Of a stretch of 14,086 nt of DNA, positions 3,009-13,777 are shown in pieces (the stretch's first letter is position 1; every line of letters begins with the position of its first letter). Under the pieces are notes generated by a model. It had not been told where the DNA came from. It saw only the letters and a program-made list of their open reading frames with translations, and did no database searches. Position numbers and translations under genes: made by a program. Origin of the DNA: Candidatus Zixiibacteriota bacterium (GTDB lineage: Bacteria > Zixibacteria > MSB-5A5 > CAIYYT01). The DNA lies in the NCBI GenBank assembly GCA_023134875.1, contig JAGLUH010000073.1, forward strand, positions 1-14,086. Direction: 5' to 3'.

Positions 3009-3416
3009 ATGCAGTTCACCAAGGCTGAGGAGTACGGCATATACGGTATCATGTATCTCGCCAGCCAGCCCAAGGGCCGGATCACGCCACTGTCGGAAAT
3101 CTCAGAAAATCAGAAGGTGCCGGAGAAATTCCTGGCCAAGATATTTCAATCACTCTCCCATTCCGGGTTAGTACGCTCGCACCGTGGTGTCAAGGGCGGT
3201 TTTACTCTGGGTCGACCGTCTGAACAAATCACAGTCAAGGATGTCGTCGAGAGCATCCAGGGACCCTACCAGCTCTCCAAGTCTCTTACTGAACCTTCCG
3301 GTCGACAAAGTCCCGCCGTTGCCAGCCTTTGCTGCGTATTACGGGAAGCGCAGGAGAAGCTGTTGGCAGTTTTTTCCAATCACACGATTAAGGATTTGAC
3401 CGACTGGCAGAGTTAG
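3009..3416 (+). CDS. Rrf2-family winged-helix transcriptional regulator
   Basis: A 135-residue DNA-binding protein, normal length for the Rrf2 family (IscR, NsrR, CymR). It opens with the typical MQFTKAEEYGIYGIMYLA helix (1-18). A winged helix follows with VPEKFLAKIFQSL as recognition region (37-49) and the wing signature GLVRSHRGVKGGFTL (53-67). The C-terminal helix EAQEKLL...TIKDL (113-131) is the usual dimerisation part. Fe-S members carry three spaced cysteines in the 90-110 region; here only an adjacent pair, C108-C109, is present, so a classic [2Fe-2S] site is not complete. The start follows an AGGGAAGGA ribosome site seven bases away. It precedes the dCTP deaminase (79-bp gap) and pyruvate:ferredoxin oxidoreductase genes, so control of the Fe-S enzyme in response to redox state is a reasonable inference. 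Confidence 0.87.
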   Translation: MQFTKAEEYGIYGIMYLASQPKGRITPLSEISENQKVPEKFLAKIFQSLSHSGLVRSHRGVKGGFTLGRPSEQITVKDVVESIQGPYQLSKSLTEPSGRQSPAVASLCCVLREAQEKLLAVFSNHTIKDLTDWQS

Positions 3417-3495: not shown

Positions 3496-4050
3496 ATGTC
3501 GGTTAAGCCTGATCGCTGGATCGCCGCAATGGCCAGGAAAGAGAAGATGATTTCTCCCTTTGCTGCCGGCAGGAAACGGAAAAACCTGATTTCCTACGGC
3601 CTCTCCTCCTACGGCTATGATATGCGGTTGGCAAATGAGTTTCAGCTTTTCACCGATCTTGCCGGTGGGATCATCGACCCCAAGAAGTTGCCGCCGGATG
3701 CTTTCCAGACGGTCAAAGCCAGATCAATTCTGATTCCGTCCGGTTCGTTCCTGCTGGGACGCAGTCTGGAGTATTTCCGCATTCCCCGTTCGATTTTGAC
3801 CATCTGCCTGGGCAAATCGACGTACGCCCGCTGCGGCGTCGTGGTTAATGTTACGCCGTTTGAGCCGGAATGGGAAGGTTTCGCCACGATTTCCCTGGCC
3901 AACACGTCCCCGCTGCCGGTAAGGATTTATGCCGGCGAAGGAATCGCCCAGGTGATCTTCCTGGAATCAGATACTACTTGCAGGATTTCCTATGCCGACA
4001 AGAAAGGTAAATACCAGGCACAGAAGAAAATAACCGGGGCGAAAATATAG
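3496..4050 (+). CDS. dcd: dCTP deaminase-family protein, catalytic Glu apparently replaced by Ser
   Basis: A 184-residue cytoplasmic member of the dCTP deaminase/dUTPase trimer family; dCTP deaminase makes dUTP from dCTP as a route to dTMP. The chain matches the long dCTP deaminase type: YGLSSYGYDMRL (34-45), EYFRIPRSILTICLGKSTYARCG (92-114), NVTPFEPEWEG (118-128), NTSPLP (136-141) and AGEGIAQVIFLE (146-157). K107, S108 and R112 match the E. coli R110-S111-R115 active-site stretch. In E. coli the general acid/base is E138 in VLEFYN. Here the aligned segment is TISLAN, with S133 (codon TCC at 3892-3894) at that position. The flanking blocks fix the alignment without gaps. The protein could be inactive, act as a dUTPase-like or binding protein, or use another residue. 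A GGAG ribosome site precedes the start. It lies 55 bp before the pyruvate oxidoreductase gene. Confidence 0.85.
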   Translation: MSVKPDRWIAAMARKEKMISPFAAGRKRKNLISYGLSSYGYDMRLANEFQLFTDLAGGIIDPKKLPPDAFQTVKARSILIPSGSFLLGRSLEYFRIPRSILTICLGKSTYARCGVVVNVTPFEPEWEGFATISLANTSPLPVRIYAGEGIAQVIFLESDTTCRISYADKKGKYQAQKKITGAKI

Positions 4051-8149: not shown

Positions 8150-8308
8150 TGATCAGTAGCACAAAAGCGCTGACACGTCGGCTGACAGTGAAACCGACAG
8201 CCGCTGGCGCCAGGGTTATGAGCGCCTGAGGTGATGGTTGCTTATGTTCCCTGCGACTTCGCCGAAGGTTCCAAAAAGTATAAATACTCCTTTGAAAGGT
8301 GTTTGACA

Positions 8309-10369
8309 ATGACGAGTAACAAACTTCACCTTATTTACTTCGTCATCATGGCGTTGCTGGTTACAGCAGTGGCGCTTCAGGCCGAGGAGCAACCGGCTAC
8401 ATATCAGGTCGCACGCAGTGCCGTCAGCGCCACAGCGACAATCGTGTCGCCGAAGTATATCAACTCGGTACCGCATCCGATCTCTTCCCACAAGCCGCAG
8501 CGCAAGTATCACAAGGACCCCTACGAGCCGGCGGCGGAAGAGCTGGCCAAGCTGGTTGTCGGACAGTACGATCCCAACAACCCGCATCACATTCTTGACC
8601 GCTCAGCGGCTGCGGAAACGGCGCGGAGTCTCTTTGAACCCTGCCGCAGTTTCTCCGGAGTAACCAATACCGGTTGGAATCCGCCCGATCCTCATGCCGC
8701 AGTCGGCCCTGATCATGTCGTCGTGGTGGTAAATAGCTCTATCGCCATCTTCGATAAATATACCGGCGAAAAACTGCTGCAAAGCACCGCTGACTACTGG
8801 TTCCAGAACACATCACCACCACCGCCGTCATATTTTATTTTTGATCCCAAGGTGGTCTATGACCCTAATGCCGGCCATTTTGTTATCCTTTTTCTCTGTA
8901 CTAATGATGTTTCCAAATCCTCCTTTCTGGTATCGGCATCAAAGAGCGCCGATGCAATGGGTGACTGGTACAACTACAACCTGGACGCCGCCGTCAACGG
9001 CGATGTTCCCGCCAACACCTGGCCTGATTATCCCGGCCTCGGTTTCGACTACGATCAAGCAATCTATCTCACTGCCAATATGTGGCAATTGGGGGGCGGC
9101 TATAAGTATGTCAAGGTTAGAATACTGGACAAGGATTCTCTCTATGCCGGTGGCGCGCTGACCTGGCACGATATCTGGAACCTGCGGTATCACAACTGGA
9201 CGAGTGCTTTCACGGTCAAGCCGGCAGTCAGTTATTCCGACGCCGACGGCGAGTTCTTACTTTCCAACATCTGGTATGGTGCCAATTACACTACCTACTG
9301 GAAGATAACCGATCCCCTCGGTTCGCCCGTAGTACAACTAAGGCCGCAGGTAAGCGTGTCGTCGTACAGTTCGCCACCCGACGGAGTACAACAAGGAGGG
9401 CCGCCGACTATCAGTTTGTTGGGACCGATGACCCAGGAGGTAGTTTATCGTAACGGCATGGTTTATACATCTTTTTCGCAGGCATTCAACTGGGGTTCCG
9501 GCACCGTGAGCGCGATCCGAATGCTGGGTGTTGATACTCTTACCTCGACGGCGACACTGGATGCTGTTTTCGGCGCGGATGGTATCTACTACTATTTTCC
9601 GGCGATCTATCCCGACCCGCTAAATCGTATTTACACCTGTTTCAGCCGCTCTTCCACAGAAGAATATATCGGCATCCACTATATTGAGGATTTCCTGAAC
9701 GATCCTGCCAGCAAGCTCCTGCGACAGGGTGACGGTCATCGCAGCGGGAGCTCGCCAACGCGCTGGGGCGATTATGGCGGTATCGCCGCCGATCCGGTCG
9801 ATCAAAACCTGGTCTGGGTCTATCATGAGTATGCCGGTCCGACAGGAGGAGGCTGGCGCACCTGGATCGGTCAAATACCCTCCAAAATCGGCAAGCCCAC
9901 CCTTGATGCGCCGCTAAATGCCGCTCAGGTGGAGACGCAGGTTGAATTGTCATGGGATATCGCCGATTCCGCTACCTCGTATCAGCTTCAAATCGACGAT
10001 GATTCCACCTTCATCTTGCCTGAAGTCAGCCTGGTAGTTGCGGGCAACAGCTATATAGTCGGCAGTCTGACCGATATGCAGACCCACTACTGGCGAGTGC
10101 AGGGCGTCACCGCCTGTGATATCAAAACCTGGTCTGACATTTGGTCATTTACCGTCTGCAATTTCGTGGCCGGTGATGCTGATGGCTCCGGCGCGACCAA
10201 TGTCGCCGATGCGGTTTATCTTATTAGCTACGTCTTTGGCGGCGGCCCGGCGCCTGATCCGGTCAACGCCGGCGACGTTGATTGTAACACCCTCGTAAAC
10301 ATTGCAGATGTTGTCTACCTGATAAACTACATCTTTGGCGGGGGGCCGCCTCCCTGTAAGCTGTGCTGA
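8309..10369 (+). CDS. Secreted protein with beta-rich N-terminal region, fibronectin-III-like domain and tandem dockerin
   Basis: A 686-residue exported protein of unknown function. The start at 8309 is chosen because GAAAGGTG lies just upstream and the chain then begins with a clean signal peptide (MTSNKLHLIYFVIMALLVTAVALQ, cleavage near residue 24-26). The reading frame is open back to 8231, but that extension would bury the signal peptide. Residues about 110-520 are aromatic- and Gly/Asp-rich, with motifs such as NPPDPHAAVGPDHVV and DPKVVYDPNAGHFV, suggesting a beta-propeller-like fold; no catalytic motif was recognised. Residues about 526-617 (PTLDAPLNAA...LSWDIADSATSYQLQI...HYWRVQG) look like a fibronectin-III domain. 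Two dockerin-type Ca-binding repeats start at 622 and 655, 33 residues apart, each a 12-residue loop (D-x-D-x-S/N...N-x-x-D) ending in FGGGP. No type IX sorting domain follows. It may bind a cohesin-like partner. Confidence 0.8.
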   Translation: MTSNKLHLIYFVIMALLVTAVALQAEEQPATYQVARSAVSATATIVSPKYINSVPHPISSHKPQRKYHKDPYEPAAEELAKLVVGQYDPNNPHHILDRSAAAETARSLFEPCRSFSGVTNTGWNPPDPHAAVGPDHVVVVVNSSIAIFDKYTGEKLLQSTADYWFQNTSPPPPSYFIFDPKVVYDPNAGHFVILFLCTNDVSKSSFLVSASKSADAMGDWYNYNLDAAVNGDVPANTWPDYPGLGFDYDQAIYLTANMWQLGGGYKYVKVRILDKDSLYAGGALTWHDIWNLRYHNWTSAFTVKPAVSYSDADGEFLLSNIWYGANYTTYWKITDPLGSPVVQLRPQVSVSSYSSPPDGVQQGGPPTISLLGPMTQEVVYRNGMVYTSFSQAFNWGSGTVSAIRMLGVDTLTSTATLDAVFGADGIYYYFPAIYPDPLNRIYTCFSRSSTEEYIGIHYIEDFLNDPASKLLRQGDGHRSGSSPTRWGDYGGIAADPVDQNLVWVYHEYAGPTGGGWRTWIGQIPSKIGKPTLDAPLNAAQVETQVELSWDIADSATSYQLQIDDDSTFILPEVSLVVAGNSYIVGSLTDMQTHYWRVQGVTACDIKTWSDIWSFTVCNFVAGDADGSGATNVADAVYLISYVFGGGPAPDPVNAGDVDCNTLVNIADVVYLINYIFGGGPPPCKLC

Positions 10370-11104: not shown

Positions 11105-13654
11105 TTACTTCATCAGAACCATCTTCTTGGTATCCGTAAAGAGACCGGCGGCAGTCAACCTGTAGAAGTAGACACCGCTGGCCACATTTGACGCATCCCA
11201 AGTAACCTCTACGTGGCCTGCGTTTGTTCCGTTATAGCTCTTAATCAGCTGACCATTTACGTTGTAAATGTCAAGCGTCCAGTCGGTAACGACCGGTAAG
11301 TCTATCCCGATCTTGGTAGTCGGGTTGAACGGGTTGGGCACGTTCTGACTCAGCATGAAGTTGTCGGGAAGGGCAGTCTTCTCGACATGAGTCTCCATCA
11401 GGTTGCCGTAATAATCGGAAACCTGCACTGTAGCCAGATCAGCACCCGTCACCGTCACCACCTCGTTGAGGCCCGCCGGAAGCGCGTTGGTCAGGTTGAC
11501 AGTACCGGAGTAAACCAGTACGTGCAACACACCGTCACGCTCGTTGTAGAGGACCTCCATATCGGTGTGGCTGTTCAGCGTGTAGGCGCCGTTGACCTCA
11601 AAGGTCAGGTACAACCCACCGATATCCTCAGAACTGGAGGTGGAGACTGTGCCATTCACAACCTTGATGTCAGCAGTTGACGCGAATGGCGCCAGTTTTG
11701 CGTACGGCAGATCGTCACCGACGATGATTCTGATCAGATAGACCAGGTCACCAACCGTGAGCACCAGACCGTCGTTGTTGACGTCGGAAGCCGCGATCTG
11801 ACCCTCAAGGGCGACATGGAACACGCTGATGCCGTACAGGAAGTAGTTCGTGTACAGCACCGCATCCGCGATGGTATTCGCGAGACCATCAAGGTTCAGG
11901 TCGCCTGTGGCGTCAATCGAGTCGTGGTCGGCAATGTCCACGCCGCCGTTGTAGAAATTGACCACCGTATCAGGAGTGACCTTGTCACCCAGCATACAAT
12001 CGATGCCGGTACCCTGCCAGCCGCCCCATCCGGGAATTCCGGTGAGTTCGCCGACTAAGTCGTACCCGTAAACGTGCGCACTCAGGAACAGAGTATCACC
12101 CGTGATGGAGGAGAAGGTATTATCACCGCAGTCGAACCAGTAGAAGCTGATTGGCACGAACTGGCCCTCGTAAGTGTGATCATTCGTGACCAGGAACTTC
12201 AACGTGGCCAGACTACCGGTCAAACCCTCACCAAAGCAGAGCGGATGGTTAGGACCATTGTTGTAGTCAGCAATGGTGACTATCCGGACGAAGCCGGACG
12301 GACAGGGACCACCACAATTGCCCTGGGCGCCTGTGCTGTAGGTGAAGTACTCAAATCCGCAGGCAACCAGGACGTCTCCCGGAGCAGCTGACATGAAGGT
12401 CAGGGCGCTGGCGTCATAGGCGACGAGCAAGTCAAAACCGCCAAAACCTTCGGTCCAGTGATTCAGGAGAATGTCGACATAAGCGTAATGACCCTGGAAC
12501 TGCTTGTGAATCTTCTCAATCTGGACCTCATACGTCGGCATGACGCGAATCACGAAGTTACAGTAAGCGTATTCACAACCATCCCATACGGAGATCGTCA
12601 CCGGGAAGTCGCCAAGGTAAGTATCGTCACCATGCACTGTCGGCCAGTCCCAGACACCGTTACTCGTATTGAGATTGAAGGTGCCAACAGCCGGCGGAGT
12701 GACCACGGCATAGACTAGTGGCAACGGGCAGGCATCAGGATCGGTGGCGATAACCTGGCCATCAGCAGTCCAACCCCAGTAGATAAACAACTCAGAACCG
12801 GGAGTCGGGCAGTCGGTGAAGATTGGCGGGGCGGTCTCGAGCGTGATATACCAGGTGCACTCGTGATAGGTACCCCACTCGTCAGTAACCCGCACCACCA
12901 GGTCGTACATCTTACACATGTTGGCCTGCTCGACCGGATCCCAGAGGTAATCACCAGTAACGGTATTGATGCTGCCACCCGCGGAACCACCAACGATTGA
13001 CCACACCAGATCAGTAACGCACCAGTTATCCGGATCAAACGCGGCGAAAGGATACATGATCACGGCACAGGCGTTGAATATCTGACCTGCCGGACAGTTG
13101 GTGATCACCGGCGCCGTATTGAAGACCCGGTAAGTTTCACCGGTGCAGGCGTAAGTGTCCGCAGTACCTCCCGGCAGGGAGAACTTGGTATCGGCTATGA
13201 CCGGAATATTGGGATCAACAACCCAGCCATTCGTGCAGTCGACCGTAAACAGACCGGTATCGCAGTTGGTGGTCACTTCAATCTGGAACGTGTAGTCGCC
13301 AGCCGGCATCTGCATCGTGTTAGCCGGATCGAATGCCCACATGCGAATCATGTCATCCGGAGCGCCGCCAACACGAGTGATATCACTGCCCGGAAAAGTA
13401 AAGGCCGGATCGAGAGTGATGCTTGTTACTGTACCAAAGGCTTGCGTAGCTCCTTCTGTCACCAGGGCAATCAGGTCGAAAGCCTGAATGTCGACGCTGG
13501 CGTTGACATTCACGGTGATAACCTGGTTGGGAGTATTATACGGAAAATCAGCGGAGACAAACCCCACCGTAACGTGCGCAAATAATGAGCTAATCGGAAA
13601 CAGAAGCATTGCAGAGATCAGCAAAGCGAAAAACGTAAGATTTTTTTGCCTCAT
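11105..13654 (-). CDS. Large secreted surface protein: tandem beta domains, cohesin-like domain, dockerin-like pair, type IX sorting domain
   Basis: An 849-residue exported protein, function unknown. The start at 13654 has an ideal TAAGGAGC ribosome site and gives a clean signal peptide (MRQKNLTFFALLISAMLLFPISSLFA). The open frame reaches a TTG at 13687, but that start lacks support. Two tandem Ig/cadherin-like repeats begin with TAP[V/P]I at about 180 and 274, with several cysteines. Residues about 375-526 (VDILLNHWTEGFGGFDLLVAYDASALTF...LATLKFLV) look like a cohesin-type beta sandwich. Two dockerin-like Ca loops follow, starting at D585 and D624, each with a 13-residue spacing rather than 12. 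A further beta domain (about 660-755) precedes the C-terminal domain (766-849) with NVPNPFNPTTKI and SGVYFYRL...KKMVLMK, the type A sorting signal of type IX secretion cargo. It probably sits on the cell surface. Cohesin assignment is by pattern, not by search. Confidence 0.83.
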   Translation of the reverse strand: MRQKNLTFFALLISAMLLFPISSLFAHVTVGFVSADFPYNTPNQVITVNVNASVDIQAFDLIALVTEGATQAFGTVTSITLDPAFTFPGSDITRVGGAPDDMIRMWAFDPANTMQMPAGDYTFQIEVTTNCDTGLFTVDCTNGWVVDPNIPVIADTKFSLPGGTADTYACTGETYRVFNTAPVITNCPAGQIFNACAVIMYPFAAFDPDNWCVTDLVWSIVGGSAGGSINTVTGDYLWDPVEQANMCKMYDLVVRVTDEWGTYHECTWYITLETAPPIFTDCPTPGSELFIYWGWTADGQVIATDPDACPLPLVYAVVTPPAVGTFNLNTSNGVWDWPTVHGDDTYLGDFPVTISVWDGCEYAYCNFVIRVMPTYEVQIEKIHKQFQGHYAYVDILLNHWTEGFGGFDLLVAYDASALTFMSAAPGDVLVACGFEYFTYSTGAQGNCGGPCPSGFVRIVTIADYNNGPNHPLCFGEGLTGSLATLKFLVTNDHTYEGQFVPISFYWFDCGDNTFSSITGDTLFLSAHVYGYDLVGELTGIPGWGGWQGTGIDCMLGDKVTPDTVVNFYNGGVDIADHDSIDATGDLNLDGLANTIADAVLYTNYFLYGISVFHVALEGQIAASDVNNDGLVLTVGDLVYLIRIIVGDDLPYAKLAPFASTADIKVVNGTVSTSSSEDIGGLYLTFEVNGAYTLNSHTDMEVLYNERDGVLHVLVYSGTVNLTNALPAGLNEVVTVTGADLATVQVSDYYGNLMETHVEKTALPDNFMLSQNVPNPFNPTTKIGIDLPVVTDWTLDIYNVNGQLIKSYNGTNAGHVEVTWDASNVASGVYFYRLTAAGLFTDTKKMVLMK

Positions 13655-13777
13655 TACGTTGCTCCTTATGCTCCTCATAAGTTCCAAAAACTAAGTCAAG
13701 AAGTTTTGACCCATCGTTCTGCCGATCAATCTTTTTCTGAGATCGGATGTCCAAAACAACTCAACAGAAAACAATTC

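Follow-up and report, generated by a model that had tools for sequence, protein, structure and literature searches.

A dCTP deaminase homologue with serine at the catalytic glutamate position in Candidatus Zixiibacteriota, and its possible retention as a dUTP diphosphatase

The closest described relatives of the gene analysed here are enzymes of the DCD fold: short-type dCTP deaminases (TIGR02274, with the examples 4dhk of Burkholderia thailandensis and 3km3 of Anaplasma phagocytophilum), bifunctional dCTP deaminase-dUTPases (M. tuberculosis, M. jannaschii, B. halodurans), and archaeal DCD-fold dUTPases (9ln0, 9ln3, 8y1w and 2zdc, all named dUTPases in their PDB titles). PDB titles further record the E. 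coli variant E138A with dCTP (1xs4) and with dTTP (2j4q), and the M. jannaschii variant E145Q with pyrophosphate (3gf0). The results of Hogrefe, Helt, Johansson and Huffman are used here as related in excerpts of PMC5122711, PMC4827122 and PMC3360063. According to these excerpts, the residues of dUTP hydrolysis are Ser102, Asp119 and Gln148 in M. tuberculosis numbering (Helt et al., via PMC3360063), Arg126 of the E. coli enzyme blocks this hydrolysis (PMC3360063), and the P. furiosus-type DCD-fold dUTPase is an efficient dUTPase with no deaminase activity (PMC5122711).

The window, by which we mean the whole stretch of 14,086 nucleotides that was analysed, contains an intact gene of this fold within a conserved cluster. 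The relevant features are the following:

3009..3416, + strand: Rrf2-family regulator (family match), upstream neighbour in the conserved cluster
3496..4050, + strand: Glu-less protein of the dCTP deaminase family, 184 aa, intact ORF with ATG start
3625-3627, + strand: residue 44, Arg in the window protein (alignment)
3811..3831, + strand: GKSTYAR motif (residues 106-112) including S108; no variation at G106, K107, S108, T109 and R112 among 63 Glu-less and 55 Glu sequences
3847..3879, + strand: NVTPFEPEWEG motif (residues 118-128), in which E123 replaces the dUTPase catalytic Asp (alignment; E123 invariant)
3892..3894, + strand: codon 133, TCC, giving Ser133 where deaminases have the general-base Glu (alignment)
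3949..3951, + strand: Q152, matching Gln148 of the M. tuberculosis enzyme (alignment; residue role as given in section 6 of PMC3360063)
4106..7693, + strand: pyruvate:ferredoxin oxidoreductase (PFOR; family match), downstream neighbour in the conserved cluster

By fold and by curated score the window protein belongs to the dCTP deaminase family, reaching 139 bits with TIGR02274 dCTP_deam (cut-off 92.8) and 105.3 bits with Pfam DCD PF22769 (cut-off 27). It differs from the short-type dCTP deaminases in that the general-base Glu of their TLEF/YN motif is replaced by Ser133, a position that we take to be E138 in E. coli numbering. A sequence-only reading of the window had already placed Ser at the catalytic position in an ungapped context, and this is borne out: HMMER aligns 4dhk (...EPEWEGYVTLEFSNTTPLP...) and 3km3 to the window protein with no gap anywhere from GKST through NTSPLP, S133 stands opposite the Glu of TLEFSN in the solved 4dhk, and the codon TCC differs from GAA and GAG at three of three bases. 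The archaeal DCD-fold dUTPases show low identity to the window protein (18-27%), which scores 25.7 bits with the archaeal dUTPase model NF002598, far below the cut-off of 130, and TIGR00576 (trimeric dUTPase Dut) is absent from the families reported for it.

Of the residues of dUTP hydrolysis, a set to which the deaminase Glu does not belong, the window protein keeps two (S108 and Q152), while the Asp has become E123. The archaeal dUTPases retain this Asp in their DPGW motif, whereas the window protein has Glu there; from the bifunctional enzymes it differs both in lacking the deaminase Glu and in the exchange of Asp119 for Glu, and the joint presence of Glu and the hydrolase residues, by which bifunctional enzymes are recognised, is not found in it. 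No Arg lies between T120 and E123, and the hairpin has 2 residues fewer than that of the M. tuberculosis enzyme; Arg126 of E. coli, which we placed in this hairpin by eye, presumably has no counterpart in the window protein. In the alignment, the P. furiosus-type dUTPase has Met at the deaminase Glu position.

The exchange is common among relatives. In 120 listed homologues, including the window protein, the site is occupied by Glu (79), Ser (29, one of them the window protein), Ala (10), Cys (1) and Gln (1), such that 41 of the 120 carry a residue other than Glu. A degenerate DNA pattern for Dcd, which matched 131 of 131 trial loci, subsequently found Dcd in 117 of 132 genomes from a phylum that we infer to be Candidatus Zixiibacteriota, because the so-named P0034, P0097 and L052 are identical to the proteins of G106, G108 and G004. 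The 120 Dcd sequences translated from these 117 genomes have Ser (55), Glu (55), Ala (7), Gly (2) or Cys (1); counted by genome, 64 hold a Glu-less form (Ser, Ala, Gly or Cys) and 53 the Glu form. A one-off oddity or a sequencing error can be excluded, as non-Glu residues occur in dozens of homologues and in separate assemblies; the three-base difference of the codon had been advanced against such an error, and the 64 of 117 phylum genomes confirm that argument.

Ser is shared by G001 and G004, the Dcd-bearing relatives in the family of the window genome. To that extent the check proposed earlier, whether Ser is fixed in the clade, comes out positive, but Ser is not special, with Ala, Gly and Cys also found at the site. 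Outside the phylum, Glu-less members are P0016 (Spirochaetota by name) and L111 (Firestonebacteria by name); the TIGR02274 cut-off is passed alike by the window protein, P0016 and P0034. A profile search built on 37 non-Glu sequences returned 87 additional proteins, 86 of which have Glu, and among viral relatives the best 80 of 153 all have Glu.

Rrf2 and PFOR genes both adjoin Dcd in 48 of 65 Glu-less and in 22 of 55 Glu sequences, the counts being taken from short fetched stretches in which a miss is no proof of absence; the same cluster is also present at L226, L228, L230 and L231. As the cluster is common to both forms, the Glu-less gene is an orthologue changed in place, at least in the lineages that share the cluster. 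Close homologues with Glu had been named beforehand as an observation that would speak against a genuine change. Glu-bearing orthologues do exist, but they belong to other families and lie in the same gene cluster, so that the change is derived and occurred in place.

In the source genome (77% complete) a single DCD-family gene was found, and the idea that a second, Glu-bearing Dcd exists beside the Glu-less one was rejected on this result. Each Glu-less genome gave one match to the Dcd pattern, the exception being G043, which has two near-identical Ser-type copies (L179 and L180), one with an internal TGA. The search for a second dcd or a dut that had been proposed thus returned neither in this 77% complete genome; the dut control was positive in 10 of 14 known genomes. 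Dimeric dUTPase PF08761 also gave no match, a weak negative, since the control for this family was positive in just one of the 14 known genomes tried. The same incomplete genome has one ThyX, no match to ThyA, and at a contig end a piece of a DCTD-type deaminase (residues 97-163, 69% identity to the DCTD of G001). Across the phylum, 3 of 132 genomes have a canonical dut match that passes the cut-off, PF08761 was found in 0 of 58 (subject to the same weak control), and ThyX is present in 54 of 58 and ThyA in 2 of 58. There are also examples in families f2 and f15 (G005, G021, G028, G034, G039, G044, G014, G049 and G054) where tandem Thy1 (ThyX) matches lie in one frame of ~500-560 residues, and G002 (99% complete) has ThyX and no match to Dcd, DCTD or dut.

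The sequences of the Glu-less gene speak against decay. In a set of 63 Glu-less and 55 Glu sequences, from which the partial G081 and G094 were dropped, G106, K107, S108, T109, R112, G114, N118, T120, P121, E123, P124, E125, W126, E127, G128, T131, N136, Q152, F155, S165, Y166, Y173 and Q174 are invariant in both forms. R44, which is invariant in the 55 Glu sequences, is Ser or Thr in 35 of the 63 Glu-less ones, all of family f7. The median dN/dS is 0.15 for Glu-less (30 pairs) vs 0.09 for Glu forms (43 pairs), from non-independent pairs with dS of 0.05-1.6, and a stop within the matched stretch occurs in only 1 of 65 Glu-less copies, the second copy of G043. The view that simple decay does not account for the exchange, put forward earlier on the preservation of the protein, is supported by the invariant active-site motifs and a dN/dS of about 0.15. 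No compensating acidic column has been gained across the 63 Glu-less sequences; E59 is present in 42 of them, and the window protein has Ile there.

Loss of the Glu mostly goes together with a DCTD-type dCMP deaminase gene. The deaminase of G001, which we call type I, scores 230 bits against 2w4l, described in an excerpt of PMC12697855 as human dCMP deaminase; type II, found in f10 and f14, reaches 112 bits against 2w4l and is 45-54% identical to type I. Either type was found in 58 of 64 Glu-less vs 2 of 53 Glu genomes (Fisher 9e-24, kinship ignored). The list of positives was compiled by hand (best row of at least 94 bits, plus G070) and includes partial copies in G000, G106 and G070 (the latter weak, 26 bits over the last 45 residues with 49% identity), without which the tally is 55 of 64 Glu-less genomes; the match in G036, with one TGA inside, was scored as present. 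When kinship is counted, 1 independent pair is left on supported branches and the link between Glu loss and DCTD is not significant, the association resting on few independent events.

Exceptions occur on both sides. Glu-less genomes without DCTD are G043 (95% complete), G082 (77%), G085 (91%), G093 (86%), G101 (84%) and G110 (97%), the Dcd of the last being of the Ala type. The two Glu genomes with DCTD, G104 and G105, are both members of f18, a family that has Ala and Ser forms as well, and look like a state in which DCTD is present and the Glu not yet lost; G105 carries a dut besides. A further 7 DCTD-bearing genomes gave no Dcd match, so that the Dcd activity is dispensable or replaceable. 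A PF00383 search in the six Glu-less genomes without DCTD and in G002 found 14 loci. Deaminase motifs were scanned at 12 of these 14 and at L233 (L245 and L247 being left out), with no ORF read at L241, L242, L244 and L246, which include the sole PF00383 matches of G082 and G085. The ORFs of G043, G110, G101, G093 and G002 we take to be TadA-like, with an additional, presumably cytidine-deaminase-like ORF in G043 and G002. Among 42 Glu genomes sampled for other phyla (from 43 of 80 loci; four are Zixibacteria by title), no DCTD match exceeded 69 bits. In L111, the Ser-type Firestonebacteria example, the sole deaminase scores 54.7 bits and looks ComEB-like, so the partner of this Dcd is not DCTD type I/II. 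Many Glu genomes also have a more distant, ComEB-like deaminase, a family in which dCTP-specific and promiscuous enzymes have been reported (PMC12697855, in excerpt). Should type I/II act on dCTP, the product would be dUTP and a dUTPase would be needed even more.

A tree of 118 rows has 7 changes between Glu and Glu-less. One of 40 hand-chosen rows from the phylum has 5, with the Glu-less rows in two groups (f1/f7/f18 and f10/f14), and here the AU test rejects a single Glu-less clade (p 0.001). As a single origin is rejected, the Glu has been lost at least twice in the phylum. For f1 and f18 with their nearest proteins alone (42 rows), the AU test does not reject such a clade (p 0.117). Codons for Ala and Gly are one base change away from Glu codons, and Ser is one from Ala, and because these are single steps, Ala and Gly may have been passed through on the way to Ser.

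As Glu-less Dcd no longer has the residue by which the attacking water is activated, we consider it highly probable that it has lost dCTP deamination, a conclusion that draws on the chemistry and on the replacements by Ala and Gly. That it has been retained to convert dUTP to dUMP and pyrophosphate is a proposal for which we see the chances as evenly balanced. Of several possible explanations, the best reading, modelled on the archaeal DCD-fold dUTPases, is that deamination was shifted to DCTD and Glu-less Dcd was kept as a dUTP diphosphatase. The ancestral Glu enzyme would have been dUMP-forming, by deamination plus hydrolysis of the triphosphate, because the phylum mostly has ThyX and nearly all genomes are without dut. 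The DCTD-type dCMP deaminase found in some lineages could then have supplied dUMP. The Glu disappeared at least twice, probably via Ala or Gly to Ser, and the deaminase activity presumably with it, while selection would have maintained nucleotide binding and dUTP cleavage. A changed role, proposed earlier as dUTP hydrolysis, nucleotide sensing or regulation, stands as the best reading; dUTP hydrolysis is favoured among the three, with some room left for sensing or regulation.

Several observations would agree with a dUTPase: the active-site motifs are invariant and dN/dS is low despite the loss of the Glu; S108 and Q152 are kept, the Arg126 counterpart appears to be missing and dut is scarce; the P. 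furiosus-type dUTPase offers a parallel with its Met at the same site; and DCTD is distributed as described, with a single origin rejected. Others count against it. E123 replaces what would be the water-holding Asp, in Glu and Glu-less forms alike, and no short-subfamily member with measured dUTPase activity was met in the sources searched. The NF002598 score far below cut-off and the exchange of R44 likewise weigh against it. The explanation as a whole is weakened further by the lack of significance once kinship is counted, the six Glu-less genomes without DCTD and the 7 DCTD genomes without Dcd.

A different division of labour, which we regard as unlikely, would make Glu-less Dcd a dCTP/dUTP diphosphatase that converts dCTP to dCMP and pyrophosphate, with DCTD then turning dCMP into dUMP, such that the route is divided over two enzymes. 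The dCMP-deaminase-type gene that accompanies Glu loss would fit well, as would the E. coli E138A enzyme, which still binds dCTP and dTTP, and the M. jannaschii E145Q enzyme with pyrophosphate; however, no bacterial DCD-fold dCTPase was met in our searches, dCMP can be obtained from other sources, and the natural Glu-less relatives are reported, in the excerpts cited above, as dUTPases. Phage T4 divides the route from dCTP to dUMP between the gp56 dCTPase and a dCMP deaminase, and the two-step route would be the same here, although by analogy only, gp56 being of a protein family unrelated to DCD. The E138A structures and the invariant binding residues would equally suit a non-catalytic sensor or regulator that binds dCTP, dUTP or dTTP and has a second protein as its target, with a possible connection to the adjoining Rrf2 gene or to PFOR. 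We hold this to be doubtful, as the Glu form lies in this cluster too (22 of 55), which is thus not specific to the Glu-less one, and as the invariance of the hydrolase residues would be without reason, binding excepted.

It is very unlikely that the protein still deaminates dCTP by activating the water through some other group, such as E123 or the backbone. A TIGR02274 score above the cut-off and the six Glu-less genomes without a DCTD match, G110 among them, can be quoted for this. Against it, no new acidic residue is common to the Glu-less sequences, the site can also be occupied by Ala or Gly, every one of the best 80 of 153 viral relatives keeps the Glu, and E138 mutants of dCTP deaminase are not known to be active. 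Least credible, and largely refuted, is a dispensable gene on its way to loss after takeover by DCTD. Such a process might explain the somewhat higher dN/dS of Glu-less forms, the internal stop in one of the duplicate copies of G043 and the 7 DCTD-bearing genomes in which Dcd was not found; it is contradicted by the invariant core, a dN/dS far below 1, the 64 of 65 Glu-less copies whose matched stretch is free of stops, and the recurrence of this change in dozens of assemblies made separately.

Family models still assign the label dCTP deaminase despite the missing general base, here in 64 of 117 genomes, and genes so labelled probably do another job in the Glu-less lineages, most likely the destruction of dUTP. 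Open-licence literature contained no report on dCTP deaminase of Zixibacteria, nor on dCTP deaminase as an inactive enzyme or pseudoenzyme, and earlier reports may exist elsewhere. If the diphosphatase acting on dCTP as well as dUTP were true, a cellular DCD-fold counterpart of the pair of T4 gp56 and dCMP deaminase would stand annotated as dCTP deaminase, and the route from dCTP to dUMP would have been split more than once in one bacterial lineage. Family f18, which holds both forms, provides natural pairs with which to ask if removal of dUTP or supply of dUMP maintains Dcd, and these also bear on the interconversion of mono- and bifunctional members of the dUTPase superfamily.

Beyond the cluster, the window encodes a large protein at 8231-10369 (+ strand) with a dockerin match just under the cut-off, and another at 11105-13687 (- strand) with a Por-type secretion tail match above it, which is probably secreted.
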